This document shows, one piece after another, positions 1 through 17,841 of a stretch of DNA of 30,638 nucleotides; within the stretch, counting starts at the first letter, position 1; every line of letters begins with the position of its first letter. The position numbers were made by a program, and so were the translations under genes. The stretch comes from an uncultured bacterium (lineage in GTDB: Bacteria > Bacillota > Clostridia > Lachnospirales > Lachnospiraceae): contig CAJMNU010000009.1 of NCBI GenBank assembly GCA_905214855.1, positions 1 to 30,638 of the forward strand, in the 5' to 3' direction. The notes under the pieces were generated by a model, which saw only the letters and a program-made list of their open reading frames with translations, ran no database searches and was not told the DNA's origin.

Positions 1-1
1 A

Positions 2-154
2 GAAGGAAAAATATATAAATTATTGACATTTTCCGGAACAGAAAGAGATATAGCAGATCCGTGGTATACAGGAAATTTTGATGAGACTTATTCAGATATA
101 GTAGAAGGATGTGAGGGCTTTCTGAAATATCTGGAAGAGGTAGGATCAATCTAA
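2..154 (+). CDS. Low-molecular-weight protein-tyrosine phosphatase, C-terminal end (partial)
   Basis: Only the last 50 codons are present; the gene begins before the window. The visible peptide contains a D-I-A-D-P-W-Y segment followed by an acidic helix with EGCEGFL. This matches the C-terminal part of the low-molecular-weight tyrosine phosphatase fold, where a conserved D-P loop supplies the general-acid aspartate and is followed by the final helix. The catalytic CxxxxxR loop lies outside the window, so activity cannot be judged. No convincing terminator follows the stop codon. Confidence 0.7.
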   Translation, partial: EGKIYKLLTFSGTERDIADPWYTGNFDETYSDIVEGCEGFLKYLEEVGSI

Positions 155-477: not shown

Positions 478-1926
478 ATGAGAGAGATAACACAACAGCA
501 GATCATATCCATAGCACCTAATGCATCAGCAGTCAATAATGCGAGAAAAATTTCAAACAGCAGCGGTTTTGTGTCCCGTTCCCGTTCTGCAGATGATACA
601 TTTTATATGGGAGAGTGTAAAGGGAGCGGGAAATCCAATTACATAGTTTCTGCCGATTTTATAGAAGAGGACAAGCCGGTTTTCAGATGTACTTGTCCGA
701 GCCGTCAATTTCCATGCAAGCACAGTTTGGCACTTTTGTTTGAGATGGAGGCTCAAAAAGAGTTTTCTGTCTGCGAGATTCCAGAAAATATTTTAGAAAA
801 AAGATCCAAAAAAGAAGCGAAAGAGCAGAAAAAGGCAGAGGAAGCCACACAGCCGCCTAAAGAGAAAAAAGCGAATAAAACTGCCCGTACCAAAAAGATC
901 AAACGGCAGTTGGAAGGCTTGGAAATGCTTGAGAAAATGGTAGGTGATTTATTAAATAGCGGTCTTGGAACTATGGGAGGTGTATCTCTAAAAACATATA
1001 AAGATCTGGCAAAGCAGCTTGGAGATTATTATCTTCCAGGACCTCTCAATTTAATGAATGAACTGATTTTAGAGATAGAGAAATATCAGAAAGATGCAGA
1101 TACCATACACTATGAGAATGCAGTGGAAATACTGGTACGCCTTAGATCATTGACTAAGAAAGCGGGAATATATTTGCAGGATAAATTGGACAGCGGCAAT
1201 ATGGAAGATGATGACAATATACTCTATGAAGCATTGGGAGGAATATGGACATTAGAACGTCTGAACCAATTGGGACTCAAGAAAGAAAATGTAAACCTAG
1301 TACAGCTTTCTTTCGAGACGTATTATGACGAGGCACGTAAAGAATGGATAGATCTGGGATATTTTGTGGATGTGGAGAGTGGCGAGGTTCATGTATCCTG
1401 TAATTACCGTCCTGTAAAAGCATTAAAATATATCAAAGAAGAAGATTCTATGTTTGATATGGTAAAGGTTCCGTTTTTGACTTATTATCCGGGAGATATG
1501 AATAAAAGAATACGCTGGGATAAAAGCACATTGATTCCGCTTCATGATGAAATAAGAAGAACAATAATGCAAAAAGCACACACCGATTTAGCTGGTGTGA
1601 TCAAAACAGTAAAAAATCAGATAAAGAATACACTGTCTGAGGATTTTGCAGCAGTTATGATACATTTTAAAAAGATTGGGAAAATAAAAGGTCAAGAAGA
1701 AACATTATGCTATGTCTTAGAAGATACTATGGGAAACCGTATTGTTCTCAGGGATAAAAAAGGACATGAAGGAACTGTCAAATGTATGGCATCTTTGAAG
1801 GCAGGCAGTTTATTTGAGGATCAGGTATTATTTGGAATCATTTACTACGATTCATCAGATCATCAGATTTGTATGCAGCCATATAGCATCGTGACAGAAA
1901 AAGCGATTGTGCGGCTTTTATATTAA
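478..1926 (+). CDS. SWIM zinc-finger protein of a YehL/MoxR-vWA operon
   Basis: A 482-residue cytosolic protein. Residues C71, C73, C80 and H82 form the CxC-x6-CxH pattern of the SWIM zinc finger, a DNA- or protein-binding module. It is followed by a lysine/glutamate-rich, probably coiled-coil segment (about 95-160) and a long C-terminal part with no motif I recognise. In E. coli the SWIM protein YehQ is encoded beside the MoxR ATPase YehL, the DUF5682 protein YehM and the vWA protein YehP. The same partners lie downstream here, so this is probably the YehQ counterpart, perhaps recognising the target. The ATG is preceded by a weak purine-rich site (aaaggaaaggcaggcag). It is the first gene of the operon; the gap to the next gene is 27 bases. 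The molecular role is unknown. Confidence 0.8.
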   Translation: MREITQQQIISIAPNASAVNNARKISNSSGFVSRSRSADDTFYMGECKGSGKSNYIVSADFIEEDKPVFRCTCPSRQFPCKHSLALLFEMEAQKEFSVCEIPENILEKRSKKEAKEQKKAEEATQPPKEKKANKTARTKKIKRQLEGLEMLEKMVGDLLNSGLGTMGGVSLKTYKDLAKQLGDYYLPGPLNLMNELILEIEKYQKDADTIHYENAVEILVRLRSLTKKAGIYLQDKLDSGNMEDDDNILYEALGGIWTLERLNQLGLKKENVNLVQLSFETYYDEARKEWIDLGYFVDVESGEVHVSCNYRPVKALKYIKEEDSMFDMVKVPFLTYYPGDMNKRIRWDKSTLIPLHDEIRRTIMQKAHTDLAGVIKTVKNQIKNTLSEDFAAVMIHFKKIGKIKGQEETLCYVLEDTMGNRIVLRDKKGHEGTVKCMASLKAGSLFEDQVLFGIIYYDSSDHQICMQPYSIVTEKAIVRLLY

Positions 1927-1953
1927 AGGACAGTCTGAAAAGGAGGTCACAAT

Positions 1954-4104
1954 ATGAACTTACAGCCATTTTATGAATTAAGAGAACGACTTCATACAGC
2001 TGCCAACGCAGGTGTGAATTTGATCACAGAAGATTTCAGGCTTCAGCGTGTTGTATCAGCAGTAGAACCATTTGCCAAGGCATCCCCAATCTTTGCAAAG
2101 ATTGATCAGATGTTGAAACAGATGTTAACACCAGAATGTACAAACCGTGCATGGATGCTTTTAGATATTCTGGCACTTTTAGATGCTGTTCTGACCACTC
2201 AGGGCAGCAATGGGATAGAAGGAGAACTGGAAAATGCAGGATGCCATGACAGAGATGAGAAATTTTTTGAACATTATAAAAATATTCCAGCTGGTATCCT
2301 TCGACCTTTAAAAGAAGCGATGACCGGAACTGGAAGTGGGCGTTATAATATCATTGAAGAGACTCACAATGCATATCCGGAAGTATTTGATGATTATCGG
2401 GTTCAGGAACTTATGGTAAAAGGATTGGGAGATTCTTATTCAGAAATTAGCGTCTTATATAAAACATGGCTCAAAGAAAAAGGAAATGAGATCATTCCAC
2501 TATTAAAAGATGGATTTGACCCATCAGGAAAAAGAGAGATGGTACACAGGATAGAGATCATTGCTGCAATAGCTGGAGAAAAAGAAAATGATTTTTATCT
2601 AAGTCAACTTTCAGAAAGCAAAAAAGAAGTGAAAGAAGCCCTGATAGAAGCTTTGCATTTCAATCCATCTAATGCACAGATTATTCTGCAACTGATGAAA
2701 ACGGAAAAAGGAAAGGCAAAGGCAGCAGCTCAGTGGGCATCCGGATTTATGGACACAGAAGAGATTCGTGAATACTGGCAGAAAACAGAGGTGAATCCTC
2801 TTATTTTAGGCGGATCTTCTTATAGATGGGCGGCAGATTTACAGTCACAGAGACTACTTAAATTGGTGGAAAAAGTGACCCAAAATGCTGTAGACAACAT
2901 GGATCATGAAGACAGTAACGAGCATTCTTTGAAAACTACAGGTGTCATAGAGCATTCAGATGAGGAGAAGATTTTAACCTATTTACAGGCTCTGAGAGGG
3001 AAAAAGATTACAGACTTTGCTTCCTGGATCCAAAAACTGGCAGCATTAGCCCCAAAATTCCAGAAATTGAAATCTGAAAAAGACAAAAATTCATTTCAAC
3101 AGATAGACATGCATCTGGAGGGGGATGGATTTGCCAAAGCATTGTCAGACTATCTCATGGATACATTATTTTTAATATTAGAAAAAACAACGATAACAGA
3201 CTCTATAACAGATCCTATAATAGATTCTACACCAGATTCCATAACGAATCCTATGACAGATCTTACAAGAGACATGACAAAAGATATAACAAAAGATAAT
3301 GAAGATCGTTGTGCATGGAATGAATATATTGTCCAAGTGGCAGATCAGACCAAATATCTTTATCAAGAATATGGAGTTTTGTATTTGGGGGCAGCTTTTG
3401 CGGCATCATTTTTGACAGAGACAAAAGAACAGGTATTTCAGACCTATGCACCCTATCTGAAAGAAAATGGGATGTTGGAGATCCAGAAAAAGAAGAAAAA
3501 GAGCGAACGCATCCAGATTTATAAGTTTTTCTCCCATTTACAATATAACAGAGAGAAGAAAACATATTTGTATAAATATAAAAGAGGGCTTTCATGGAAA
3601 GGAGAGTATCAGGCAGATTGTATGATCTGTACAGGAAAAGATTTAAGTCTGGACTGGTATCCACTCATTTTCAAGATAAAGGAAGAAGAAAATGATACAG
3701 GAAAAAAGAACAGCCGATCCGTGTCTTACTATTCTCCATATACAGAACATGAAAGGATTGTGCGTGAACTATTTAGAATTGATACCGAGGAATTGAGACG
3801 ATGGTATGGAAACTATTTTTACAGGCAGGTGTGTAAAAACCGTTGGTATGGGAATGACCTTGACCTGTTAAAAGAATGTGGATGGAAAGATTTTAGAGGT
3901 ATTTTAAAGCATCGACTGCTTGTTCAGGATTTGTATTGGCTACACAATATAACAGATGATATGGGGCTTGGTAAAGAAGAGATCATTCAGGAGATGGAAG
4001 AGGCAAAAGCGCAGATGGGATCTTCCAAAGCTGCATCTGCTGCACGGATTGCTCATTGGATTCAACAATTAAAGGACGGAGCTTCTATCAGTGATCTGAC
4101 ATGA
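1954..4104 (+). CDS. Large HEAT-like repeat protein of the MoxR-vWA operon
   Basis: A 716-residue soluble protein, with AGGAGG shortly upstream of the ATG. Residues about 190-270 show amphipathic helix pairs resembling HEAT/ARM repeats, so a scaffold role is inferred. Gene neighbourhood suggests it corresponds to the helical protein (DUF5691-type, from memory) that accompanies SWIM, MoxR, DUF5682 and vWA genes in many bacteria; I cannot verify this assignment. Residues about 412-449 are a low-complexity insert with a four-residue I-T-D-x period, encoded by nine degenerate 12-bp units (3193-3300). The rest is rich in charged residues and has no catalytic motif I can identify. The same 12-bp repeat reappears just after the stop codon, in an open frame one base away, so the C-terminus may have been longer in an ancestor. 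Confidence 0.7.
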   Translation: MNLQPFYELRERLHTAANAGVNLITEDFRLQRVVSAVEPFAKASPIFAKIDQMLKQMLTPECTNRAWMLLDILALLDAVLTTQGSNGIEGELENAGCHDRDEKFFEHYKNIPAGILRPLKEAMTGTGSGRYNIIEETHNAYPEVFDDYRVQELMVKGLGDSYSEISVLYKTWLKEKGNEIIPLLKDGFDPSGKREMVHRIEIIAAIAGEKENDFYLSQLSESKKEVKEALIEALHFNPSNAQIILQLMKTEKGKAKAAAQWASGFMDTEEIREYWQKTEVNPLILGGSSYRWAADLQSQRLLKLVEKVTQNAVDNMDHEDSNEHSLKTTGVIEHSDEEKILTYLQALRGKKITDFASWIQKLAALAPKFQKLKSEKDKNSFQQIDMHLEGDGFAKALSDYLMDTLFLILEKTTITDSITDPIIDSTPDSITNPMTDLTRDMTKDITKDNEDRCAWNEYIVQVADQTKYLYQEYGVLYLGAAFAASFLTETKEQVFQTYAPYLKENGMLEIQKKKKKSERIQIYKFFSHLQYNREKKTYLYKYKRGLSWKGEYQADCMICTGKDLSLDWYPLIFKIKEEENDTGKKNSRSVSYYSPYTEHERIVRELFRIDTEELRRWYGNYFYRQVCKNRWYGNDLDLLKECGWKDFRGILKHRLLVQDLYWLHNITDDMGLGKEEIIQEMEEAKAQMGSSKAASAARIAHWIQQLKDGASISDLT
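3193..3300 (+). repeat. In-frame 12-bp degenerate minisatellite (unit ~ATAACAGATNNN)
   Basis: Nine consecutive 12-bp units follow the pattern ATAACAGAT plus three variable bases, for example ataacagactct, ataacagatcct and ataatagattct. They encode a four-residue I-T-D-x repeat in the HEAT-like protein. Because 12 is a multiple of three, unit gain or loss keeps the frame. A second array of the same family lies at 4139-4258. Confidence 0.8.
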
Positions 4105-4138
4105 TATTTCCATAACAGAATGGTGCGGCAAAATATGG

Positions 4139-4258
4139 ATAACAAACGATATAATGCACAATGTAACGAATCATATAACAAATGATATAACAGATGACAT
4201 AACAGACGATATCATGGACGATGTAACAAACGATATAACATGTGGTATAACATATAAC
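4139..4258 (+). repeat. Second array of the same 12-bp minisatellite, between the HEAT-like and MoxR genes
   Basis: Ten contiguous 12-bp units (ataacaaacgat, ataacaaatgat, ataacagatgac, ataacagacgat and similar) fill most of the 216-base gap. Read in the frame of 4100-4285 they stay open and spell I-T-x-D tetrapeptides in the same codon phase as the array inside the upstream gene. This frame is +1 relative to the HEAT-like gene and begins right at its stop. An ATG at 4154 would give a 43-residue peptide, but it has no ribosome binding site. I do not call it a gene. Confidence 0.8.
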
Positions 4259-4320
4259 AGACAATATAGCAGAATCATGAAATGATAAGAAAGTAACGGG
4301 AATGAAAAGGAGAGACCATT

Positions 4321-5412
4321 ATGGCAAAAAAAGAAAATGTGCTGCGTTTGCCTGCGGAACAATTGTTTCAAAAGGAGATAGATGCTTTGATTCAGGCAGA
4401 AAAAGATCCAATCCCTACAGGATGGAAGATGTCACCAAGATCTGTTTTGAAATATATTGTTGGAGGAAAAGTTGGAAAAACGGAGATCACACCCAAATAT
4501 ATCGGACACCAGAGACTGGTGGAGATTGCAATTTCCACATTGGTCACAGACCGTGCATTGCTTTTGATCGGAGAACCGGGAACGGCAAAATCATGGCTGT
4601 CAGAACATTTGACCGCAGCGATAAATGGGGATTCCACAAAAGTTGTTCAGGGAACTGCTGGTACAACAGAAGAACAGATCCGATACTCATGGAATTATGC
4701 AATGCTGATCGCCAATGGTCCGACTCCGGAGGCAATGATCAAAAGTCCAGTATACCGTGCAATGGAGACAGGAAGTATTGCCAGAATGGAAGAGATTTCC
4801 CGATGTGCTTCTGAAGTACAGGATGCGTTGATTTCCATTTTATCAGAAAAAAGGATCTCTGTGCCAGAACTTGGAATCGAAGTTCCGGCTCAGAAAGGAT
4901 TTTCTATCATTGCTACAGCTAATACCAGAGATAAGGGAGTCAATGAAATGTCAGCCGCATTAAAACGGCGTTTTAACATCGTAGTGCTTCCTTCCCCAGA
5001 AAATCTGGAGGCAGAAATGGAGATTGTCCGTTCCAGAGTGACACAGCTTTCATCGAATCTGGATTTGAATGCAGCACTTCCTGAGGATGAAGTAATCGAG
5101 AAAGTATGCACGATTTTCCGAGAATTAAGAAATGGAACAACATTAGATGGAAAACAGAAATTAAAGTCCACAAGTGGTGTGCTTTCTACAGCAGAAGCGA
5201 TCTCTCTGCTTGCAAACAGTATGGCATTGGCAGGAAGTTTTGGAAATGGAACGATCACAGATTATGATCTTGCCGCAGGTCTTCAGGGGGCGATCATCAA
5301 AGATGAGGGAAAAGATGCTGCCAGCTGGGAAGAGTATCTGGAAAATATCATGAAAAAGCGTGGCTCAAGATGGAATGGATTGTATAGGGAATGTAAGGAG
5401 TTGTTGCGCTGA
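4321..5412 (+). CDS. yehL: MoxR-family AAA+ ATPase, YehL subgroup
   Basis: A 363-residue AAA+ ATPase. Walker A is G84-E-P-G-T-A-K90-S91. The Walker B position reads I-A-R-M-E157-E158, so glutamate replaces the usual aspartate. Sensor 1 is A-T-A-N201, and the arginine finger region is L-K-R216-R217-F. The order and spacing fit the MoxR branch, whose members work as chaperone-like remodelers with vWA-domain partners. The neighbours (SWIM, DUF5682 and vWA proteins) point to the YehL subgroup. The start has AAAAGGAG seven to eight bases upstream. The stop overlaps the next ATG by one base (TGATG), indicating translational coupling to the DUF5682 gene. It presumably forms a hexamer that drives conformational change in a target recognised by the vWA or SWIM partner; the target is unknown. 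Confidence 0.88.
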   Translation: MAKKENVLRLPAEQLFQKEIDALIQAEKDPIPTGWKMSPRSVLKYIVGGKVGKTEITPKYIGHQRLVEIAISTLVTDRALLLIGEPGTAKSWLSEHLTAAINGDSTKVVQGTAGTTEEQIRYSWNYAMLIANGPTPEAMIKSPVYRAMETGSIARMEEISRCASEVQDALISILSEKRISVPELGIEVPAQKGFSIIATANTRDKGVNEMSAALKRRFNIVVLPSPENLEAEMEIVRSRVTQLSSNLDLNAALPEDEVIEKVCTIFRELRNGTTLDGKQKLKSTSGVLSTAEAISLLANSMALAGSFGNGTITDYDLAAGLQGAIIKDEGKDAASWEEYLENIMKKRGSRWNGLYRECKELLR

Positions 5413-7715
5413 TGGAGAAAAAACCACATGTATTTGGAGTGCGTCATCTGTCACCAGCAGGTGCATACCATTTGCGTAGTTTTTTAGATGAAGTAAAACC
5501 TAAAAAAATTTTGATAGAAGGACCATCCGATTTTACAGAGTTGATTGAAGATTTAACAGATAGGCGTGTAAAACCTCCTGTTGCTGTCATGGCTTATACG
5601 ACACAGGCACCGATCCTTTCTATCCTTTATCCATTTGCGGTTTATTCCCCAGAATATCAAGCGCTTATATGGGGAAAAGAACATGGATGTGAATGTCAGT
5701 TTATGGATCTTCCGTCCCAAGTTTTTCTTGCCTTGCAGGAGATGCATGAAAAAAGAGAGCAGGAAAAAATCATGGAGACGGGAGTGGAGACACCTCACAA
5801 TGCTATGGAAGGGACAGAAAGCATTTATAATGCTTTAGATCAGGCGAGTGGGGAAGATGGTCATGAGACGTTCTGGGAACATGTGCTGGAACATTCTGAA
5901 ACTCCACTGGCTTATCTTAGAGGAGCCAGTGAATTTGGGTATCAGATTCGGGAATGGACAAAACAAAATTTATGGGAGCAGGCAGAGACAACACTCAGAG
6001 AATCTTATATGAAACGCCAGATTGAGGATGTCATAAAAGAAGGGATAGAACCGGAGGAACTTGTGATAGTGACAGGGGCATATCATGTGAGAGGGCTTTT
6101 GGAAGAGGCAGAACCTATGAGCGATGCACAGATCAAAGCCCTTCCGAGGTTGGAATCCAGACAGACTCTGATGCCATATTCATATTATCGTCTCTCTGCC
6201 CGTTCTGGATATGGGGCAGGCAATAAAGCACCTGCGTATTATGAACTCCTCTGGCAGTCTTTAAGGCAGCAGCGTTTGGAATATACAGCACATGCATATT
6301 TGACGAAACTTGCTGCATTCCAGAGAAAAAACGGCAATCCAGTTTCTTCAGCAGAAGTGATAGAAGCAGTGCGCCTTGCGGGAACACTGGCAGAACTGCA
6401 TGGGTATCATGTCCCATCTCTTAGGGATCTGAGAGATGCCGCAATAACGTGTATGGGACATGGACAGTTTTCAGAGCTTGCATTGGCAGTAGCAGATACA
6501 GAAATTGGAACAAAGATAGGTTCTCTGCCAGAAGGCGTAAGCCAGACATCAGTGCAGAGCGATTTCTATCAGAATCTGGAAAGGCTTCGTCTCACAAAAT
6601 ATAAGACAGTGACAGCGGAGGAATTGCAGCTGGATCTGAGAGAAAAATTGACCGTAAAATCAGAAAAAGCCGCTTTTTTGGATTTGGAACGATCATTTTT
6701 CTTACATAGGCTGCGAGTGTTGGGAATTTCTTTTGCAGTGATGCAGAATGTTTCGCAGGAAAGAGCAACTTGGGCTGAGAAATGGATCTTGCGATGGACA
6801 CCAGAGGCAGAGATTCAGATTGTTGAGACTGTATTAAAGGGAGATACGATCGCACAGGCAGCTTCCTTTGAATTGCAGGAGAGGATTGAGAAGGAAAAGA
6901 ATATTACGGTTGCAGCATCTGTGATTGAAGAAGCATTTTTTTGTGGTATGCCGGCATCTGTGCGCTATGCGACCAGAGTCTTGCAGGAGATGGCAGTAGA
7001 TGCAGCTTCTATACAGGAAATTGCAAAAACGGCAAGAAGTCTTTCTATAGCAATACAGTATGGGGATATTCGAAGATTGGATGCAGCACCGCTTCTCCCA
7101 CTTTTATCTCAGTTATTTTTACGTGCATGTCTGATCTTTCCAGACAGCTGTATCTGTGATGATGCAGCTTCTAAGAGTGTGTCAGAGGCTATGGAAAGCA
7201 TAAACGAAGTGGTTTTACATCATGATTTTTTGGAAGAGGAACGATGGATTCAGGTTCTTGAGGTGATCGCCCAGAGAGATGATCTAAATACCAAGTTGTC
7301 AGGATTTGCGGCAGCTATTCTTCTGGAGAGAGGAAAGATGGATAGTGTAGAACTTGGACGTGAGGTAGAAAGAAGGTTATCTCGTGGAATTCCGGCAGAA
7401 TTAGGAGCGGGATGGTTTGAGGGGCTGGCGCTAAAGAACCATTATGCATTGATTGCCCGTATGACACTTTGGGAAAAATTGAGTGATTACATGGATACGC
7501 TAGATGAAGAAGAATTTAAAAGAGCTTTGGTATTTTTAAGAAGAGCATTTGCAGACTTCTCATCAGCAGAGAAAAATGACATTGCAGAAAATCTGGGAGA
7601 AATCTGGAAAGTGAACCCACAGCAGGTCAGTGAAGTATTAAATGAGACATGGAATGAGACTCAGAAGGAAGAAATGCTGGAAAGTTTGGATGGATTTGAT
7701 TTTGATGATATATAG
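5412..7715 (+). CDS. yehM: DUF5682 (YehM-like) protein with a TraB/EreA-like N-terminal domain
   Basis: A 767-residue cytosolic protein, translationally coupled to the MoxR ATPase. The N-terminus reads G9-V-R-H12-L-S-P-A-G-A-Y-H20, then I-E36-G-P-S-D40, and later V-T-G-A-Y-H225-V-R-G-L. A glycine-histidine start, a strand ending in E-G and a G-A-x-H motif about 200 residues on recall the TraB/TIKI/erythromycin-esterase-like superfamily of putative hydrolases; this fold match is my inference. The remaining ~500 residues are alpha-helical and alanine/glutamate-rich, ending in an acidic tail (D-G-F-D-F-D-D-I). E. coli YehM, of similar length, is the likely homologue. If the N-terminal domain is a metal-dependent hydrolase, this would be the enzymatic or effector subunit of the operon. 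No biochemical role is established to my knowledge. Confidence 0.8.
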   Translation: MEKKPHVFGVRHLSPAGAYHLRSFLDEVKPKKILIEGPSDFTELIEDLTDRRVKPPVAVMAYTTQAPILSILYPFAVYSPEYQALIWGKEHGCECQFMDLPSQVFLALQEMHEKREQEKIMETGVETPHNAMEGTESIYNALDQASGEDGHETFWEHVLEHSETPLAYLRGASEFGYQIREWTKQNLWEQAETTLRESYMKRQIEDVIKEGIEPEELVIVTGAYHVRGLLEEAEPMSDAQIKALPRLESRQTLMPYSYYRLSARSGYGAGNKAPAYYELLWQSLRQQRLEYTAHAYLTKLAAFQRKNGNPVSSAEVIEAVRLAGTLAELHGYHVPSLRDLRDAAITCMGHGQFSELALAVADTEIGTKIGSLPEGVSQTSVQSDFYQNLERLRLTKYKTVTAEELQLDLREKLTVKSEKAAFLDLERSFFLHRLRVLGISFAVMQNVSQERATWAEKWILRWTPEAEIQIVETVLKGDTIAQAASFELQERIEKEKNITVAASVIEEAFFCGMPASVRYATRVLQEMAVDAASIQEIAKTARSLSIAIQYGDIRRLDAAPLLPLLSQLFLRACLIFPDSCICDDAASKSVSEAMESINEVVLHHDFLEEERWIQVLEVIAQRDDLNTKLSGFAAAILLERGKMDSVELGREVERRLSRGIPAELGAGWFEGLALKNHYALIARMTLWEKLSDYMDTLDEEEFKRALVFLRRAFADFSSAEKNDIAENLGEIWKVNPQQVSEVLNETWNETQKEEMLESLDGFDFDDI

Positions 7716-7840
7716 AAATGATATAGTAATTATATATGGTAATGACATATGAGCATATTCCATTATTGTATGTTTAGAAAGTTCACACGTTAAAACGAAA
7801 AGATAGGACCGTATCATTGAATGAGAGGAGAAAACGGCAG

Positions 7841-9091
7841 ATGGATCAAAGAATATCATATGAAAAAGATACTGTAAGTTCCAATGATATAGAAAATCAA
7901 AATGATATAATGGAACGGATTAGACGTTGGCGCTTGATTTTGGGAGCGCAGAGCCAGAATCGTTTTTCCTCAATGAATCAGGAGTGGGAACTTACAGAAG
8001 AGCAGCTTTTGATGGATCAGGCATTGGCAGCAATCTATAATAAAACATCAGAGGGAGGATTTGGCAATCCGTCGTCCGGAGCAGGGGGAGGTCATGGTCC
8101 TTCCAATCCACAGATCACAAAATGGTTGGGAGATGTACGCACATTGTTTGACAAAGACCTTGTAAAGATCGTGCAGGCTGATGCAATGGAAAGATGTGGT
8201 TTAAAACAATTGCTTTTAGAACCAGAACTTTTGGAACACTTAGAGCCGGATGTCAACTTGGCAAGTACTCTGTTAATGTTAAAAGATCAGATTCCCAAGC
8301 GTTCCAAGGAAAGTGTCAGAACATTTATTCAAAAGATCGTGGAGGAGATCAACAAACTTTTGGAGACGGATATCCGCCGTGCTATAACGGCAGCAGTCAA
8401 TAAAAGGCAGCATTCTCCGATTCCGTCTGCCAGTGCGCTTGATTTTACATATACGATCAAACGAGGATTGAAGAATTATAATCCACAGCTAAAAAAAATC
8501 ATTCCAGAACACTTTTACTTTTTTGACAGAACTTCCACAACAGCTGCCAATAAATATACCATTATTTTAGATGTGGATCAGAGTGGTTCTATGGGAGTGT
8601 CTGTGATCTACTCTTCTATTATGAGCTGTATTTTAGCCAGTATGGTATCCATAAAGACCAGAGTTGTGGCATTTGATACTAATATTGTGGATTTAACGGA
8701 AAAATGCGAAGATCCGGTGGATTTACTATTTGGATTTCAGCTGGGTGGGGGAACAGACATTAACAAGTCGGTTGCCTACTGTGAACAATTTATTGAGAAT
8801 CCTAAAAAAACGCTGTTTTTTCTGATCACAGATCTGGAAGAAGGAGGAAATCGTGCTGCTTTACTCAGAAGGCTTCGGGAGATGAAAGAGTCTGGGGTTA
8901 CTGTGATCTGTCTTCTGGCGATCGCAGATGGCGGAAAACCTTATTATGATGCACAAATGGCAGCTAAAGTAGCAGGAATGGGTATCCCGTGTTTTGCATG
9001 TACGCCTGAAAAATTGCCCGAACTTTTAGAGAGATCTTTAAAAGGTCAGGATTTAATGGCAATGCAGAAAGAATTTGAGAAAAAGAAGTAA
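7841..9091 (+). CDS. yehP: vWA-domain protein (YehP/CoxE-like), partner of the MoxR ATPase
   Basis: A 416-residue protein. I start at the ATG at 7841 because AGGAG lies ten bases upstream (7826-7830); an in-frame TTG at 7817 has no good binding site. The N-terminal ~230 residues are helical with a glycine-rich hinge (about 71-87). The C-terminal vWA domain has an intact MIDAS metal site: D246-x-S248-x-S250, T305 in G-G-G-T-D and D331 in I-T-D. vWA proteins of this type are metal-dependent adaptors for MoxR ATPases, as in the CoxD-CoxE and RavA-ViaA pairs. It lies 125 bases after the DUF5682 gene, in the same direction. The stop codon sits inside a tandem repeat (9086-9187), and the gene is followed by a terminator. 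Confidence 0.85.
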   Translation: MDQRISYEKDTVSSNDIENQNDIMERIRRWRLILGAQSQNRFSSMNQEWELTEEQLLMDQALAAIYNKTSEGGFGNPSSGAGGGHGPSNPQITKWLGDVRTLFDKDLVKIVQADAMERCGLKQLLLEPELLEHLEPDVNLASTLLMLKDQIPKRSKESVRTFIQKIVEEINKLLETDIRRAITAAVNKRQHSPIPSASALDFTYTIKRGLKNYNPQLKKIIPEHFYFFDRTSTTAANKYTIILDVDQSGSMGVSVIYSSIMSCILASMVSIKTRVVAFDTNIVDLTEKCEDPVDLLFGFQLGGGTDINKSVAYCEQFIENPKKTLFFLITDLEEGGNRAALLRRLREMKESGVTVICLLAIADGGKPYYDAQMAAKVAGMGIPCFACTPEKLPELLERSLKGQDLMAMQKEFEKKK

Positions 9092-9291: not shown

Positions 9292-10023
9292 TTAAATCCA
9301 ACCACCGTCTAACTGGATGATCTGACCAGTCAGATAATTTTCTTTGTATCCCAGATGATAGGCAAGATCAGCGACTTCTTCAGCTCTGCCAAGTCGTCCG
9401 GCAGGAATTTCGTCAACCAAAGCCATCAATTCTTCTTCCTCTAAAAACTGGTTCATTTCTGTATCGATTGCACCACAGGCAATGGCATTTACCTGAATAT
9501 GACTTGGAGCAAGTTCCTTGGCAAGTGCCCTTGTGAAAGCATTAATACCACCTTTGGATGCAGAGTAAGCAACCTCTGTGGATGCACCACATATTCCCCA
9601 TACAGAAGAAATATTGATGATTTTACCACTTTGACGGCTTACCATATCAGGAATTGCCAATTTGGAACAGTTAAATACTGAGGTAAGATTGGTACGGATC
9701 ACTCTGTCCCAATCTTCTTCCTTCATATCCTGTAAAAGACCAATGTAGGATATGCCAGCATTATTGACGAGGACATCGAGAGGACCAAAGTGTTTTTTGA
9801 TCTTGTCAAACAGATTCTTACAGTCGTCCATATTTCCCATGTCTCCCATAAAAGCAAGACAGGGAACTTGATAGGATTCGATCAATTTTTTTGTCTGCAT
9901 CAAACGCTCTTCATTTTGAATGCAGCTGATCGCAACCTGATACCCCTTTTTTGCAAATTTGATTGCGACAGCTTTACCAATACCGCGGGAAGCACCCGTG
10001 ACCAAAACTGTTTTTCTAGCCAT
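9292..10023 (-). CDS. FabG-like short-chain dehydrogenase/reductase, possibly EF-P 5-aminopentanone reductase
   Basis: A 243-residue classical SDR. T9-G-A-S-R-G-I-G16 binds the cofactor, N-N-A-G is at 87-90, and the catalytic set is N112, S140, Y153 and K157. The family reduces carbonyl groups with NAD(P)H; FabG itself acts on 3-oxoacyl-ACP. The active-site surroundings (I-S-S-V-W-G, G-A-S-x-E-V-A-Y-S-A-S-K-G) resemble YmfI of Bacillus, which reduces the 5-aminopentanone group on elongation factor P. The gene stands alone rather than in a fab cluster, which favours YmfI over FabG, but the two cannot be separated safely by eye. Start: GAGGAGG is well placed upstream of the ATG on the minus strand. 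It is monocistronic here and convergent with the vWA gene. Confidence 0.8.
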   Translation of the reverse strand: MARKTVLVTGASRGIGKAVAIKFAKKGYQVAISCIQNEERLMQTKKLIESYQVPCLAFMGDMGNMDDCKNLFDKIKKHFGPLDVLVNNAGISYIGLLQDMKEEDWDRVIRTNLTSVFNCSKLAIPDMVSRQSGKIINISSVWGICGASTEVAYSASKGGINAFTRALAKELAPSHIQVNAIACGAIDTEMNQFLEEEELMALVDEIPAGRLGRAEEVADLAYHLGYKENYLTGQIIQLDGGWI

Positions 10024-10517
10024 AAAAATACCTCCTCTATCATTTTCTTCCTAAAAATCAAGTAGATTATTTACAGCAGATATCATATAATGAAACAGAG
10101 AAAACCTTTCTTCTAACATGTATCTTATGATCTTAAATATTTAGAAGAAGGAAAAACTCACAAGTAAATTCCATATTGACCTGCATGGATTGATATAAGT
10201 CTATATTCATCCAATTATGTAGGATGGGCAATTCACAATACTGTAAGGAAAAAATTAAAAATATTAAGGAATTATTACATTCTCTTATGGTATACTATAC
10301 GAAATGATATCAAGATCAGAAAAAGAAAATCTGATGCCCTGTATCATCTAATAAAATCAGTATAACAAAGTGCAGGGATACTGTCAATTATCCAATATGT
10401 CCTACCCCCCTGCATTCGCTGTGGGGAGTGTCAAATCAGCCAAGTAAACGGATTGGTTCTATAGCAGATCGACACTATGGATACAAAAATCAGAGGAATA
10501 GAAAGGTGAACAAATAT
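10024..10517. other. Divergent intergenic region between the SDR gene and trxB
   Basis: About 490 bases contain no gene. On the plus strand an extended -10 element TGGTATACT (10288-10296) could start the trxB transcript; its -35 region is poor. The resulting leader has possible pairing between CCCTG near 10337 and CAGGG near 10373, and a C-run/G-run pair (10404-10426). I recognise no known riboswitch or T-box. A GTG at 10428 is in frame with trxB but has no usable ribosome binding site. Confidence 0.4.
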
Positions 10518-11480
10518 ATGTATGATTTAATTATTATTGGCTCAGGACCAGCAGGTCTTTCTGCTGCGATTTATGCAACAAGAGCACAGTTGAATACGTT
10601 GATTCTGGAAAAAGAAGTAATGAGCGGAGGACAGGTATTGAATACCTATGAGGTAGACAATTATCCGGGACTTCCGGGGATCAATGGATTTGATATGGGA
10701 ATGAAGTTTAGAGAACATGCGGAGAAATTAGGAGCGCATTTTGAGGAAGACACAGTCCTTTCTATAGAAACTTTAGAAGAGAGCCAAAAAGAGCTGGAGG
10801 CAGCAGAGGTTTCTTCCAAATCAGAAAGTGGTTTCAGAATTGTGGGAGAGAACGGGGAATATGAAACTAAGACAATGGTGATTGCCACAGGTGCAAGCCA
10901 CAGAAAATTAGGAGTAGACGGTGAGGAGAGACTGGTGGGACATGGAGTCTCTTATTGTGCTACTTGTGATGGGGCATTTTTTAGAAGCAAAACAGTTGTT
11001 GTTGTAGGCGGAGGAGATGTGGCGCTGGAAGATGCGATTTTTCTGGCAAGAGGATCTGAAAAAGTATATCTGATCCATAGAAGAGATGCATTCAGAGGTG
11101 CGGCTGTTCTTCAGAAGAAAGTCATGGAGACAGAGAATATTGAAGTCATCTGGGATAGTGTGGTAGATAAGATCGAAGGAGAAAATCAGGTAGAGCAGGT
11201 TCAGGTACGCAATGTAAAAACTAATGAAGTGACAGAGCTCCCAGTACAGGGTATTTTTATTGCGGTGGGTATTCAGCCGAACACAGAAGTATTCCGTGGA
11301 TTTGTAGATATGGATAAACAGGGATATATCGTAGCTGGTGAAGATGGAAAGACATCCACTGAGGGAGTTTTTGCAGCAGGAGATGCAAGAACAAAGATGC
11401 TTCGCCAGATCGTGACAGCAGCTTCAGATGGAGCAAACAGTGTGACAAGTGTGGAGAGATATTTGGCAGAGCGTGGATAA
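10518..11480 (+). CDS. trxB: Thioredoxin reductase
   Basis: A 320-residue flavoprotein that passes electrons from NADPH to thioredoxin in the cytoplasm. G8-S-G-P-A-G13 is the FAD dinucleotide-binding loop. C147-A-T-C150 is the redox-active disulfide, followed by D-G-A. G-G-G-D-V-A (164-169) binds NADPH, and A-A-G-D-A-R near the C-terminus closes the FAD site. I place the start at the ATG at 10518, with AAGG/GGTG about nine bases upstream; this gives the usual family length. The frame stays open upstream to a GTG at 10428, but that 30-residue extension is basic, unlike the family, and lacks a binding site. An NlpC/P60 gene follows in the same direction after 76 bases. Confidence 0.93.
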   Translation: MYDLIIIGSGPAGLSAAIYATRAQLNTLILEKEVMSGGQVLNTYEVDNYPGLPGINGFDMGMKFREHAEKLGAHFEEDTVLSIETLEESQKELEAAEVSSKSESGFRIVGENGEYETKTMVIATGASHRKLGVDGEERLVGHGVSYCATCDGAFFRSKTVVVVGGGDVALEDAIFLARGSEKVYLIHRRDAFRGAAVLQKKVMETENIEVIWDSVVDKIEGENQVEQVQVRNVKTNEVTELPVQGIFIAVGIQPNTEVFRGFVDMDKQGYIVAGEDGKTSTEGVFAAGDARTKMLRQIVTAASDGANSVTSVERYLAERG

Positions 11481-11556
11481 AGCTCCTATTTTGGGAGATT
11501 TTGAGCAAATGAACAGGAATTAGGATGCATAAAGAAAATGGAAAGTGTGGAGACAG

Positions 11557-12999
11557 ATGAAAAAGACTTGGATAACATGCATGGCAGTATCTTTTTGTAT
11601 ACTGTATACGATTCCCGTGACATCTATGGCAGCTGGGGCAGGAGGACAGGAGACAGTAATGCTTTTTGCCAAAGAGAACAAAGAGGGATTGGCGACAAAT
11701 CAGCAGATGTCTTATGATGAGGTGGCGATCAGTCAGGTAAGCAATTATGTCAATGTCCGTGCAGAGGCGAACACAACAAGCAGTATTGTTGGTAAGATTT
11801 ATAATAATTGTGCTGCTAAGATCATAAATACCGTAGATGGAGAAGATGGAAAGTGGTATGAGATTGAATCCGGAAATGTAACCGGTTATATAAAAGCACA
11901 ATATTTTATTACTGGGGATGAGGCAGAGACACTTGCCAAAAAGGTTGGGACAGAATTTGCCAGAATTAAGAATGCGACAACATTGCGCCTTCGTGAAAAA
12001 CCAAGTCTGGACAGTAAGACTTTGACACTTCTGGCAGAGGGGGCAGAGTATATTGTTGAGGAAGAAGAGGAGGCTTTTGCAAAGATTTCTGTGGATACAG
12101 ACCTGACAGGATATGTATCAAAGGATTACATAGAAACATGGGTAGTTTTTGATACAGCGGTCACATTAGAAGAGGAAGAGAAAAAGAAAGAAGAGGCGGA
12201 TAAGTTAAAGCAGGAGGCAGATGAGGCGATCAAACAGCTTGAAGAAGTAAAACAGGCGCAGGCAGGCAGTCAGGAGCAGCAGCCGCAGAAGCCAGAAGGT
12301 GAGCAGAATCTTTCTAATAACCAATCTACGAATGTCCCGACAGGAGGAAATGCATCATCTTCAGGTTCTAATCTGATCGAGGCAAATCCACTGGGACAGA
12401 ACAATTCATCTTCTACAGGACAGCCAGGAGTACCATCTTTGGGGGCAGGTGAGAATGAAGAAATTCCGTCCAAGAATTCGGACGCAAACAGTGGAACACA
12501 GATCCCGTCACCGGGAAGCGGAACAGAAAATGCAGGACAGGAAAGTTCTAATATCATATCTGGAAACGGTCCAGCAGGAGGAAATAACAACTCTGGTTCT
12601 TCAAATTCAAATCCTTCTGGAAACAAGGAAGTGGAGACAGCAACCCGTACTGCGATCGTAGCATATGCAAAGCAGTTCTTAGGTAATCCGTATGTTTATG
12701 GGGGAACTAGCTTAACAAATGGAGCTGACTGTTCCGGATTTGTACAGAGTATTTTTAAGCATTTTGGAATTACTACAGGGCGTTCTTCCAGAGATCAGGC
12801 TGCAAATGGCAAGACAATCGCAGTGAAGGATGCACAGCCAGGAGATCTGCTGTTCTATGCAAGTGGTGATTATATCAATCATGTTGCAATTTATATTGGA
12901 GGAAATCAGGTAATCCATGCCAGCAACTCTAGGACAGGTATTATCATTTCACCAGCAAATTACAGAACTCCATGTAAGGCAGTGACATTTTTGGACTAG
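11557..12999 (+). CDS. Secreted SH3b-NlpC/P60 peptidoglycan hydrolase
   Basis: A 480-residue exported protein. Residues 1-25 are a signal peptide (M-K-K, hydrophobic core, S-M-A cleavage region). Two bacterial SH3 domains follow (about 55-118 and 133-195), then a charged helical stretch (203-235) and a long low-complexity G/S/N/P/Q linker (about 236-360). The C-terminal NlpC/P60 domain (about 364-480) has catalytic C392 in D-C-S-G-F, H442 in N-H-V-A-I and H454 in V-I-H-A-S. Such enzymes cut the stem peptide of peptidoglycan, usually the gamma-D-Glu-to-diamino-acid bond, while the SH3b domains bind the wall. The start is the ATG at 11557; a GTG four codons earlier is possible. It may be co-transcribed with trxB, although a short hairpin lies between them. 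A strong terminator follows. Confidence 0.9.
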   Translation: MKKTWITCMAVSFCILYTIPVTSMAAGAGGQETVMLFAKENKEGLATNQQMSYDEVAISQVSNYVNVRAEANTTSSIVGKIYNNCAAKIINTVDGEDGKWYEIESGNVTGYIKAQYFITGDEAETLAKKVGTEFARIKNATTLRLREKPSLDSKTLTLLAEGAEYIVEEEEEAFAKISVDTDLTGYVSKDYIETWVVFDTAVTLEEEEKKKEEADKLKQEADEAIKQLEEVKQAQAGSQEQQPQKPEGEQNLSNNQSTNVPTGGNASSSGSNLIEANPLGQNNSSSTGQPGVPSLGAGENEEIPSKNSDANSGTQIPSPGSGTENAGQESSNIISGNGPAGGNNNSGSSNSNPSGNKEVETATRTAIVAYAKQFLGNPYVYGGTSLTNGADCSGFVQSIFKHFGITTGRSSRDQAANGKTIAVKDAQPGDLLFYASGDYINHVAIYIGGNQVIHASNSRTGIIISPANYRTPCKAVTFLD

Positions 13000-13051
13000 A
13001 ACAGGATAAAAGTATTTAATTGAAATAGAAAAGAAAAATCCAATGAAGTAT

Positions 13052-13084
13052 AAGGGCAGCCGTTTCATTTTGCGGCTGCCCTTT
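13052..13084 (+). terminator. Intrinsic terminator after the NlpC/P60 gene
   Basis: An 11-bp perfect stem (AAGGGCAGCCG with CGGCTGCCCTT, 13052-13062 and 13073-13083) with a 10-base loop, followed by a short T-run. Confidence 0.8.
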
Positions 13085-13103
13085 GTGATGTACATTTTTT
13101 GTG

Positions 13104-13132
13104 TTGAAAACTACGATTTGAGGTGATAAAAT
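13104..13132 (+). promoter_or_regulatory. Probable sigma-A promoter of proC
   Basis: TTGAAA (13104-13109), a 17-base spacer and TAAAAT (13127-13132), placed after the preceding terminator and about 120 bases before the proC start codon. Confidence 0.55.
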
Positions 13133-13254
13133 GAGAAAAATAAAAATTGATAAATGAGATAGATGAAAATTGGTAACGGCAAATAAACGGAAAAATGATA
13201 AAAGTAAAGAAGATAAATAGAGAAAACTAGAGAAAAGGAAAGGAATGAGATACT

Positions 13255-14055
13255 ATGGCAACATTTGGATTTATTGGGATGGGTAACATGGGATATGCTA
13301 TTTTAAAAGGTTTACTGAAAGAATATGATCCTAAAGAGCTGGTTTTTACCGACATTGATAAAAACAGGGGATGGAAAGTTCAGGAAGAGACTGGTGTGAG
13401 ATTTATTTCAGGCAATGCAGAGTGTGCAAGTAAGGTGAAATATCTGGTATTAGCAGTCAAACCACAATATTATGATAGTGTTTTAAAAAATATCCAATAT
13501 ATTATAAAACCAGAGCAGGTTGTCATATCTATAGCGCCAGGAATTACCGTAGATGCACTGAAAGCAAAATTAGGATTAGATAAGAGGATTGTCCGTGCCA
13601 TGCCAAATACACCAGCACTGCTTGGAGAAGGTATGACTGGTGTATGTTATAATGATGCAGAGTATACGAGAGAAGAGAGGACAATACTGGAAAGATTCTT
13701 CTGTTCTTTTGGTAAAATGGAGAAGGTGGAAGAACGTTTGATGGATGCAGTGGGAAGTCTGAGTGGTTGTTCTCCTGCATATGTGTATATGTTGATTGAA
13801 GCAATGGCTGATGGAGGAGTAAAATATGGTCTTCCAAGAAAAACAGCATATCAGATGGCAGCACAGACTGTTTTGGGAAGTGCAAAGATGATATTAGAGA
13901 CCGGAATGCATCCAGGTGAATTGAAAGATATGGTCTGTTCACCAGGAGGAACAACAATAGAAGGAGTCAGTGCTTTAGAGGAATATGGTTTTAGAAACTC
14001 TGTGATTAAAGCGATAGATGCCAGTTATGAAAAAACGATGCAGTTAAAAAAGTAA
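13255..14055 (+). CDS. proC: Pyrroline-5-carboxylate reductase
   Basis: A 266-residue cytosolic enzyme for the last step of proline synthesis, reducing 1-pyrroline-5-carboxylate with NAD(P)H. F-I-G-M-G-N-M-G (6-13) is the Rossmann nucleotide-binding loop. M-P-N-T-P (116-120) and S-L-S-G-C-S-P-A-Y (168-176) are family core motifs, and P230-G-G-T-T-I-E-G-V-S-A-L-E242 is the C-terminal signature of the ProC active site. Length is normal for the family. The ATG is preceded by AAAGGAA. It appears to be transcribed alone from a promoter at 13104-13132, and a hairpin follows at 14075-14124. Confidence 0.93.
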   Translation: MATFGFIGMGNMGYAILKGLLKEYDPKELVFTDIDKNRGWKVQEETGVRFISGNAECASKVKYLVLAVKPQYYDSVLKNIQYIIKPEQVVISIAPGITVDALKAKLGLDKRIVRAMPNTPALLGEGMTGVCYNDAEYTREERTILERFFCSFGKMEKVEERLMDAVGSLSGCSPAYVYMLIEAMADGGVKYGLPRKTAYQMAAQTVLGSAKMILETGMHPGELKDMVCSPGGTTIEGVSALEEYGFRNSVIKAIDASYEKTMQLKK

Positions 14056-14074
14056 AGTAAAAAATCTGTGTGAG

Positions 14075-14124
14075 CCCGATAAGAAAGAATTCGGATAAAA
14101 ACGTAGTTTTATTTCATTATCGGG
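14075..14124 (+). terminator. Probable terminator after proC
   Basis: CCCGATAA (14075-14082) pairs with TTATCGGG (14117-14124), extended by GAAA with TTTC across one bulged base. The loop is long, and TATCATTTTT follows. It separates proC from the iscR promoter. Confidence 0.6.
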
Positions 14125-14143
14125 TATCATTTTTGACTTAAAT

Positions 14144-14178
14144 CCTACCTTGACAGTAGGAAATATTTGTGATATGAT
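14144..14178 (+). promoter_or_regulatory. Strong sigma-A promoter of iscRSU with an operator-like palindrome over the -35 box
   Basis: TTGACA (14150-14155), exactly 17 bases, then TATGAT (14173-14178). An inverted repeat CCTAC-N7-GTAGG (14144-14160) encloses the -35 hexamer. Rrf2-family regulators such as IscR usually repress their own operon from dyads that overlap the promoter, so this is the likely autoregulatory site. Confidence 0.75.
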
Positions 14179-14277
14179 TTTTTCCAGAAAAGATATCAGA
14201 AATTTGACAAGTGAATGAAAACCAAACAGAGTCATGATAATAAGATTTATGAAGTTTTGGAGGAAATAGTTAATAGA

Positions 14278-14727
14278 ATGAAACTTTCAACCAAAGGAAG
14301 ATATGGAATGCGTGCCATGTTGGATCTTGCTTTGTATGGACAGGAACAGCCAGTTTCTATCCGAAGCATTTCGCAGCGTCAGGATATCTCTGAAAGCTAT
14401 TTAGAGCAATTGATCGCAAAACTGAAGCGTGCCGGTTTGGTGGAGAGCGTCCGTGGAGCCGGAGGGGGATATCAGCTTACTAAGCCAGCTTCTGAGATTT
14501 CAGTAGGTGAGGTATTATATGTATTGGAAGGAAATTTAAATCCTGTGGATTGCAACGAAATATCCTCAAATGGTGGATGTAAACATAAAGAACACTGCCT
14601 TTCCAAGTATGCATGGCAAAAAATTTATCAGAGTATTCAAGATACCGTAGATCATATGTATTTGAGTGAACTGTTACAACAACAGGAATCCGATCATAAA
14701 GAAATAGAAAATCAAGAAGTGAAATAA
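14278..14727 (+). CDS. iscR: Rrf2-family Fe-S cluster regulator, IscR-like
   Basis: A 149-residue transcription factor. The start at 14278 gives the typical M-K-L-S-T-K-G-R-Y-G N-terminus and has GGAGG 14 bases upstream; the 21 extra codons from an ATG at 14215 look unrelated to the family. A winged helix-turn-helix fills residues 1-65, with S-E-S-Y-L-E-Q as recognition helix and R-G-A-G-G-G-Y as wing. C92, C101 and C107 correspond to the three cysteines (92, 98, 104) that hold the [2Fe-2S] cluster in E. coli IscR, with wider first spacing. Holding a cluster would let it sense Fe-S supply and adjust the operon below. The promoter just upstream carries a matching palindrome. iscS follows after 52 bases. 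Confidence 0.88.
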   Translation: MKLSTKGRYGMRAMLDLALYGQEQPVSIRSISQRQDISESYLEQLIAKLKRAGLVESVRGAGGGYQLTKPASEISVGEVLYVLEGNLNPVDCNEISSNGGCKHKEHCLSKYAWQKIYQSIQDTVDHMYLSELLQQQESDHKEIENQEVK

Positions 14728-14779
14728 GTTAATAAATGTGATTGAATGTGTTTCAATATATTTTTGGAGGCTATAAAAC

Positions 14780-15967: not shown

Positions 15968-16012
15968 AATGAGCGGTGAGAAAGAGAAAAGAGAGAAACG
16001 GGAGGTTATCAT

Positions 16013-16447
16013 ATGTATACTGAGAAAGTAATGGATCATTTTCAGCATCCAAGAAATGTAGGAGAGATTGAAAATGCCAGTGGAATGGGAACAGTTGGAA
16101 ATCCTAAATGTGGCGATATTATGAGAATTTATTTGGATATTGATGAAAATCAGGTGATCCGTGATTGTAAATTCAAGACATTTGGCTGTGGAGCAGCAGT
16201 GGCAACCAGCAGCATGGCAACAGAACTGGTAAAAGGAAAGACGATTCAGGAAGCTATGAAAGTGACAAATAAAGCAGTGGCAGAGGCATTAGATGGTCTG
16301 CCTCCCGTTAAGATGCATTGTTCCCTTCTTGCAGAGGAAGCGATCCATGCAGCTTTGTGGGATTACGCACAGAAGAACCACATCACGATTGAAGGATTGA
16401 CGCAGCCGAAAGATAATATTGAGGAAGAAGAGGACGAGGAATATTAA
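16013..16447 (+). CDS. iscU: Fe-S cluster scaffold protein (IscU/NifU N-terminal type)
   Basis: A 144-residue scaffold on which [2Fe-2S] or [4Fe-4S] clusters are assembled from IscS-derived sulfur. C33 in G-N-P-K-C-G-D, C59 in F-G-C-G-A-A and C103 in K-M-H-C-S-L are the three cluster ligands; D35 is the conserved aspartate that tunes cluster release. An acidic tail (E-E-E-E-D-E-E-Y) ends the protein. GGGAGG is upstream of the ATG. The usual L-P-P-V-K motif recognised by HscA is present (96-100), although no chaperone genes are nearby. The stop codon lies one base before the start of the Nudix gene, so the two are probably coupled. Confidence 0.93.
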   Translation: MYTEKVMDHFQHPRNVGEIENASGMGTVGNPKCGDIMRIYLDIDENQVIRDCKFKTFGCGAAVATSSMATELVKGKTIQEAMKVTNKAVAEALDGLPPVKMHCSLLAEEAIHAALWDYAQKNHITIEGLTQPKDNIEEEEDEEY

Positions 16448-16448
16448 A

Positions 16449-16979: not shown

Positions 16980-17080
16980 GAATACACTAGATTTTAAACA
17001 GGAAGCTCCGATTTCTATAAGTTGGGGAAATTCACTATGTGTTAAAAATAGAGTGGCTTGATCTTAAAACATATTTTTAT

Positions 17081-17137: not shown

Positions 17138-17138
17138 T

Positions 17139-17684: not shown

Positions 17685-17746
17685 AATGGGCAAGGTGGAA
17701 GACAGAAAGGTAAAAATTTTGTAAAATTTATTTTGGTAAAATTTTC

Positions 17747-17790: not shown

Positions 17791-17841
17791 ATTTTGGGGT
17801 CTGAATGCAAAAAAATAGGAAAATATTGTAAAAAAATGTGT

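Follow-up and report, generated by a model that had tools for sequence, protein, structure and literature searches.

In MoxR–vWA machines, which pair a MoxR ATPase with a von Willebrand factor A (vWA) protein, a peptide is captured through the metal ion-dependent adhesion site (MIDAS) and ATP is used to remodel the bound partner, as far as the accessible part of the published account goes (PMC7159879). Escherichia coli K-12 has two MoxR ATPases, of which YehL is one (PMC3893208, likewise accessible in part). The literature that we searched, thin on subscription papers and liable to miss single-gene mentions, held no functional study of yehLMPQ and nothing naming DUF5682; two or more of these four yeh genes are mentioned together in a genome announcement and a Shigella resource. 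Of DUF4132, DUF5691 and DUF5682, only DUF4132 returned any matches. Here we examine a five-gene locus within a 30,638-nucleotide stretch of DNA (hereafter the window) from an uncultured bacterium of the Lachnospiraceae (contig CAJMNU010000009.1). The locus opens with genes for a SWIM zinc-finger and a HEAT-repeat protein and continues with those for a YehL-type MoxR ATPase, a member of the DUF5682 family and a vWA protein of the CoxE type, in this order (Table 1). Like RavA–ViaA and CoxD–CoxE, it contains a MoxR protein together with a MIDAS-bearing vWA protein, with a vWA domain of the CoxE type; those pairs differ in that they belong to other MoxR subfamilies and that no DUF5682, SWIM or HEAT partner appears in the accessible portions of their descriptions (PMC7159879, PMC3893208). 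We put at about one half the probability that this is the clostridial operon of a widespread MoxR–vWA machine, represented in E. coli by yehI-yehLMPQ, that remodels or gates a DUF5682 hydrolase while the HEAT and SWIM proteins choose its targets.

The five genes form one module, more than chance would produce. A contig scan with a DUF5682 alignment gave 172 loci, of which the best 80 were used, mostly from Lachnospiraceae and other clostridia, with two from Paenibacillus. All 1101 predicted proteins of at least 80 amino acids from these loci and the window (81 sources) were clustered and, with many loci cut by contig ends, the families were found in 80 (DUF5682), 74 (MoxR), 72 (vWA), 68 (HEAT) and 66 (SWIM) sources, against at most 11 of the 80 loci for the next-commonest neighbour families. 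When only the 56 testable loci are considered, with more than 5.5 kb before and more than 1.7 kb after the DUF5682 gene, all five genes lie on one strand in 54, and 51 of these have the order of the window with single copies, the other three having an extra HEAT gene. Because the loci are relatives, conserved order alone is weak evidence; what counts is that the other neighbours, by contrast, turn over. The first-pass annotation of this DNA had described five large same-strand genes with these domains, an intact Walker A and an intact MIDAS between unrelated flanking genes, and named as its own refutation that the homologues should rarely occur together. The open reading frames, Pfam matches and residue checks bear out the first description, the lack of conserved neighbours agrees with the second, and the co-occurrence is the opposite of what refutation called for. 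Extra genes lie inside the operon in 12 of the 56 testable loci. Two intra-operon genes (L021:7186-8886 and L044:4630-6225) encode ATPase-like proteins with PD-(D/E)XK nuclease domains, and in L025 a DUF6560 protein lies between DUF5682 and vWA, with proteins of the same cluster there in L027 and L032.

The association is also seen when linkage is set aside. Among 250 genomes from the family of genome G002 (Lachnospiraceae by inference), searched at an E-value of 1e-6, DUF5682 was present in 24 and the SWIM and HEAT families in the same 16, 15 of which carry DUF5682 (Fisher p 4e-17, or 4e-14 without the three genomes that contributed rows to the profiles). The sixteenth genome (G323; L113:8275-11637) holds a decaying remnant of an operon with the gene order of the window, in which MoxR is cut to about 85 residues, the HEAT gene is in pieces, the SWIM gene is broken by an internal stop, and DUF5682 and vWA were not found. 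Nine genomes have DUF5682 without the SWIM and HEAT families, and all six of these that were opened (not G320, G369 or G401) carry a second architecture, described below. The pairwise distances of the five genes correlate with one another (r 0.78–0.94; 0 of 500 permutations in each case).

Comparison of sequence profiles places the N-terminal domain of DUF5682 in the TraB/PrgY (TIKI) superfamily, a relationship that is new here. Among 20 diverse DUF5682 sequences, which include the window protein, YehM and Streptomyces members, the invariant residues include H12, E36, D99, E160, R180, R196, E197, M200, G222 and H225, and the profile comparison was made because the resulting pattern of GxRH, EGP, RExxM and GAxH recalls the TraB/PrgY motifs. 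A search for TraB (Pfam PF01963) across 119 genomes found matches in 23. Against 13 PrgY-like proteins, the N-terminal profile of the 20 sequences gave a probability of 97.2 (E 3e-11, 218 columns) with all four signature motifs (GxxH, E, the R motif and GAxH) in register. The controls against the same set stayed low: 30 column-shuffled profiles scored at most 0.37, the reversed profile 0.35, four unrelated family profiles at most 0.34, and the C-terminal profile of DUF5682 itself 0.09. When the DUF5682 set was split, each part matched the PrgY-like proteins alone (95.1 for the window-like half, 97.3 for the rest). DUF5682 differs from TraB/PrgY proteins in adding some 500 residues; it resides in a MoxR–vWA operon. 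Searches of the PDB with the DUF5682 or SWIM profile returned no credible match, and the ChaN family was present in 2 of the 119 genomes, too few for a profile. DUF5682 is a predicted hydrolase because of this homology, which lends support to an earlier suggestion that it might be the effector of the system.

The residues expected of a working motor are likewise in place. In the window, MoxR has Walker A GEPGTAKS (84–91), Walker B IARMEE (153–158), sensor-1 ATANTR and LKRRF; its Walker B acids are E-E, the usual pair being D-E. The vWA protein has an intact MIDAS (D254/S256/S258/T313/D339) and the SWIM protein an intact zinc finger (C71/C73/C80/H82, of the form CxC...CxH, residues 71–82). No tested residue varies in the 56 complete sets, the window included, whether in the MoxR motifs (P-loop, Walker B, sensor 1 and the arginine pair), the MIDAS, the zinc finger or the DUF5682 centre (H12, E36, R196, H225), and an intact MoxR–vWA pair is present throughout. 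The SWIM protein also has a conserved C-terminal tail, reading VRLLY in 31 of the 56 sets and IRLLY in 12.

A natural fusion, also new here, bears on which protein the motor might serve. On a Streptomyces atratus plasmid (L100:11110-14877), a single 1255-residue protein comprises DUF5682 (35–996) and VWA_CoxE (1025–1246), and its gene adjoins those for MoxR and for a protein that matches SWIM below threshold; Streptomyces plasmids hold further variants of the system. Because DUF5682 is fused to vWA in one lineage and adjoins MoxR in nearly all of the loci seen, the likeliest client of the motor is DUF5682 or substrates passed to it. From linkage, intact motifs, homology and fusion, which come from comparison, we infer complex formation, gating, hydrolysis and target choice as follows. 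The MoxR ring would be coupled through the MIDAS of the vWA protein to DUF5682, and ATP use by MoxR would remodel or gate the hydrolase. DUF5682 would then cleave or demodify a cytosolic target, with peptide-like bonds most likely, as in TIKI, while the HEAT protein, with its constant N-terminal and variable C-terminal part, and the SWIM protein would choose or present that target. The first-pass annotation had cast SWIM as recogniser, HEAT as scaffold and vWA as adaptor, roles that stay hypothetical. The tails of DUF5682 are acidic in the 56 sets (FDFGDI, DFDFDL and similar), and it is possible, if speculative, that such a tail is the ligand of the MIDAS. On this proposal, what were orphan genes become the components of a five-part hypothesis, with H12, E36 and H225 (which have counterparts in YehM) as the candidate catalytic centre. 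If it is true, a hydrolase output is added to the MoxR–vWA machines, which, where they have been studied, serve mostly in assembly and maturation.

Several observations weigh against this proposal. Two of the 56 testable loci (L050 and L053) carry HEAT in three copies and lack a SWIM gene; outside the 56, L080 is without HEAT, L054 is without vWA in the 9 kb downstream, and L047 has a vWA gene upstream, on a contig that ends 1.6 kb past DUF5682. The distance correlations are expected from shared ancestry too. The TIKI fold of DUF5682 is predicted from sequence profiles, and the other TraB subset, of 11 proteins, gave a weak match of 15.8 (1.3 and 4.3 for the two DUF5682 halves), with the two subsets pooled giving 96.5. 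The active site of TIKI enzymes consists of two His and two Glu, and DUF5682 lacks the Glu that stands two residues before the first His in these 2His/2Glu enzymes, as they are described in the accessible part of PMC6254334. The PrgY-like proteins lack that Glu as well and share with DUF5682 the two His and the remaining Glu. The literature searched reported no activity for any member of a DUF5682 system.

If the HEAT protein chooses targets, its pattern of conservation is of interest. The window protein itself has no Pfam match above cut-off, and its assignment comes from relatives, some of which carry HEAT_2 (PF13646), and from the family profile, which matched designed HEAT-type (alphaRep) chains and one HEAT repeat domain-containing chain in the PDB (best E 2.6e-6, positions ~210–280 only). 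Across the 56 sets, the median pairwise identity is 81% for MoxR, 75% for vWA, 61% for DUF5682, 53% for SWIM and 33% for HEAT. The HEAT protein is thus the most variable of the five, which is new here, and it is so mainly in its C-terminal half: in steps of 60 residues, it is 35–53% identical up to residue 300 and 14–29% beyond. Five loci (L044, L048, L050, L053 and L064) have two or three tandem HEAT copies that are 41–65% identical. All five genes are under purifying selection, with HEAT the most relaxed. In the eight pairs that are closest by synonymous divergence (dS) of MoxR, the ratio of non-synonymous to synonymous substitution (dN/dS) was 0.09–0.51 for HEAT, 0.11–0.53 for its C-terminal part and 0.01–0.34 for the other four genes; these are whole-gene averages, so that single positively selected sites could be masked, and for the most distant pair dS approaches saturation. 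We had considered an arms race as an explanation of the variable HEAT protein and set it aside, no whole-gene dN/dS above 1 being seen in those pairs. The pattern fits an N-terminal dock joined to an arm that is loosely constrained or target-specific.

Examination of the system beyond the clostridia reveals two gene orders, a division that is new here. In type I, the order is SWIM, HEAT slot, MoxR, DUF5682, vWA, and its carriers are the window, other clostridia, Paenibacillus and Fusobacterium (L104), together with plasmids of Rhizobium, Deinococcus, Hymenobacter and Methylosinus that have DUF5691 in the HEAT slot. These plasmid operons share the five-slot order, a MoxR that is 52–56% identical and a SWIM protein similar over its N-terminal part, whereas their second gene is not detectably homologous to the clostridial HEAT gene; in Hymenobacter and Methylosinus the vWA gene was unannotated and was found by search (partly in Methylosinus), and the Hymenobacter DUF5682 is annotated in three pieces. 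The type II order is MoxR, DUF5682, vWA, SWIM, and a DUF4132 gene precedes, interrupts or follows these four. Type II is carried by E. coli (yehI-yehLMPQ), Sinorhizobium and Iodobacter plasmids and two genomes of the Bacillota sample (L092 and L093; in L093 the protein in the SWIM slot is without a Pfam match, but is 42% identical to its L092 counterpart). All eight type II loci of the family sample have vWA, DUF5682 and a SWIM-slot match (23–33% identical), and seven have DUF4132; in one (L108), the MoxR gene is 4.6 kb distant and runs off the end of the stretch. Operons of both types occur together in two of the 250 genomes (G477 and G543; L108 and L109). Profile comparison detected no homology among the HEAT-slot families (HEAT against DUF5691 0.26%, HEAT against DUF4132 0.3%, DUF5691 against DUF4132 0.3%), and one DUF5691 protein and one DUF4132 protein have sub-threshold HEAT matches. 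The idea that the window HEAT protein is itself a DUF5691 protein is rejected on the first of these values, obtained with a DUF5691 set without the clostridial HEAT protein.

The comparison with E. coli can be made gene by gene. YehL, YehM and YehP are homologous to the MoxR (39% identical), DUF5682 (24%, 537 columns) and vWA (32%) proteins of the window, and their genes are consecutive in the same order with SWIM and DUF4132 proteins beside them, although the overall gene order differs. YehQ and the window SWIM protein have in common only the type of zinc finger (BLASTP 15 bits, hidden Markov model −2.4 bits, profile comparison 31.7 outside the finger), and full-length homology was not found. 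Hence the kinship with yehLMPQ proposed in the first-pass annotation holds for yehLMP and, for YehQ, shrinks to the finger type; YehI was not named there. YehI, a DUF4132 protein with no detectable sequence kinship to the window HEAT protein, is likely the E. coli counterpart in the HEAT slot, to judge from where its gene lies and from a relative that matches HEAT weakly. We would go further only tentatively: these operons could represent a hitherto undescribed class of ATP-gated hydrolase, from clostridia to E. coli, in which a MoxR–vWA motor switches or feeds a TIKI-type DUF5682 and exchangeable HEAT, DUF5691 or DUF4132 adaptors and SWIM set the targets.

The DUF4132 genes raise another idea, that the system is an accessory of the DNA-damage response, with DUF4132 and WGR (MolR) genes as its link to the LexA or DdrO regulons. 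In Deinococcus radiodurans, drA0165-drA0166 (DUF4132) is strongly up upon DdrO depletion, according to the accessible part of PMC8533742, and in E. coli both yehF (WGR) and yehI are found close to yehLMPQ. We regard this as highly improbable, however, given that the window version has no DUF4132 and that its LexA-like boxes are at chance level (12 sites with at most one mismatch, 8.9 expected), with none upstream of position 478.

In E. coli the operon is nearly core: a 6.3-kb yehLMPQ query matched 5301 of 5426 genomes, 5162 of them over at least 80% of the stretch, at a median of one place per genome. An E. coli conjugative plasmid record (L103) also contains a chromosome-like stretch with homologues of yehI, yehLMPQ and btsSR near IS26 and a CTX-M-15 gene. 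Near-core status and purifying selection fit a housekeeping role, and thus the reading of the system as a dedicated maturation chaperone like CoxD–CoxE or RavA–ViaA, in which MoxR–vWA assembles a partner complex or inserts a metal and DUF5682 binds, rather than cuts, a cofactor or substrate. The vWA protein is of the CoxE family, and ChaN, which belongs to the same superfamily as TraB/PrgY, is a haem-binding protein. MoxR–vWA pairs of known function act in assembly, at least in the accessible parts of the sources (PMC7159879, PMC3893208). Nonetheless, neither a metalloenzyme gene nor that of any other client is conserved beside the operon, and the H, E, R, H signature of DUF5682 is fully kept, which suggests catalysis; we consider such a chaperone rather unlikely.

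A role in defence was also among the first suggestions for this locus, and an anti-phage or conflict system can be envisaged in which HEAT and SWIM sense invader molecules and MoxR–vWA unleashes the DUF5682 hydrolase, as in the proposed MoxR–vWA ternary conflict systems with VMAP, iSTAND, FtsH or beta-propeller components. The window shares with these a MoxR–vWA core with partners, a P-loop that fits the GXXXTAKS variant of two conflict subsystems (PMC7159879) and a weak match of MoxR to Pfam bpMoxR; this match reaches 30 bits with a cut-off of 27, and E. coli YehL falls below it at 18.4. Yet Pfam shows no VMAP, iSTAND, FtsH or beta-propeller domain in any of the five proteins or in the ten neighbours scanned (for VMAP and iSTAND, no dedicated profiles were used), and the vWA protein, whose domain runs to residue 402 of 424 by Pfam, has no effector domain, variable or otherwise. 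The distribution could suit a conflict system: the operon is patchy, DUF5682 being found, besides the family sample, in 4 of 298 genomes of the phylum sample around G002 other than the centre (three more had weak sub-threshold matches); it has spread across phyla, often on plasmids (Fusobacterium, Deinococcus, Hymenobacter, rhizobia); broken copies exist, namely the G323 remnant and single in-frame stops in DUF5682 (G524, G162) and HEAT (G392); and a copy on an Iodobacter plasmid has a Type I restriction system next to it. The variable C-terminal part and tandem copies of HEAT point the same way. On the other side stand dN/dS values below 1 for all five genes, the near-core status in E. coli and the metabolic neighbours in the window. 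There is also no copy among viral contigs of IMG/VR at the sensitivity used, 97 stretches having matched the pattern with none of them a relative. An unverified, unannotated 14-kb faecal scaffold filed as a bacteriophage (L163; MT835988.1) has MoxR, DUF5682 and vWA genes and is probably a bacterial scaffold.

The flanks were compared directly with PADLOC models at an E-value of 1e-20, taking the three nearest proteins at 40 loci (120) and 120/126 control proteins from 18 arbitrary regions of eight genomes. At face value the flanks have more matches (42 families against 8), but of the 25 listed among the 42, 18 are Type I specificity models with one member each, probably the same protein. The others among these 25 are PDC-M37B (four members in each of two models), DolB (4), mad3 (2) and ShosA, PsyrA and mad5 (1 each), and the controls matched mad3 (2) and PDC-M37B, DolB, mad2, pVip and PDC-M43B (1 each). 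Because the counts are of families, not distinct proteins, and 25 of the 42 flank families were listed, the verdict is limited to no clear enrichment after discounting models that recur for a single type of protein. A PADLOC scan of the five proteins gave weak partial matches only, the best being PDC-S62 (18.5 bits, SWIM protein residues 29–100). This coarse test, the dN/dS values and the near-core status in E. coli speak against the suggested defence role, and we judge an anti-phage or conflict system unlikely. For the ATP-gated DUF5682 hydrolase that we prefer, the most likely physiological setting is a conditional stress or protein-maintenance task, favoured over defence without strong evidence.

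Table 1. Features of the window, with positions counted from its first nucleotide.
Feature	Position	Strand	Evidence
C-terminal end of a gene, presumably for a low-molecular-weight protein phosphatase	1-153		motif resemblance
SWIM zinc-finger protein, 482 aa	478-1926	+	Pfam SWIM 22.2 bits, cut-off 19.6
HEAT-repeat protein, 716 aa	1954-4104	+	relatives with PF13646; family profile against PDB
YehL-type MoxR AAA+ ATPase, 363 aa	4321-5412	+	Pfam AAA_5 E 2e-38
DUF5682 protein, 767 aa: N-terminal domain of predicted TraB/PrgY (TIKI) type and C-terminal part	5412-7715	+	Pfam E 1e-151
CoxE-type vWA protein, 424 aa from TTG, complete MIDAS	7817-9091	+	Pfam VWA_CoxE E 8e-40
Ten downstream neighbours: SDR dehydrogenase (opposite strand), pyridine nucleotide-disulphide oxidoreductase, NlpC/P60, pyrroline-5-carboxylate reductase, Rrf2, class-V aminotransferase, Nudix, SpoIIM-like protein, tyrosine recombinase, DAHP synthase	9292-19968		

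The window, clostridial to judge from its nearest kin and with a G+C content of 33–45% per kb, begins with a gene fragment that is followed by the five genes. The gaps between these are, in order, 27, 216, −1 and 101 bases, MoxR and DUF5682 overlapping by one base. For the vWA gene, the ATG at 7841, behind an AGGAGA stretch read by eye, is a likelier start than the TTG at 7817. Scans found no terminator-like sites between the five genes on the + strand, no Rfam families or tRNA, and no excess over chance of promoter-like (27 against 30.6 in shuffles) or terminator-like (5 against 6.2) sites. The neighbour scan covered the window up to 19968, and the ten genes there are metabolic in character; a tyrosine recombinase of the phage-integrase family lies amid them at 18027-18800.

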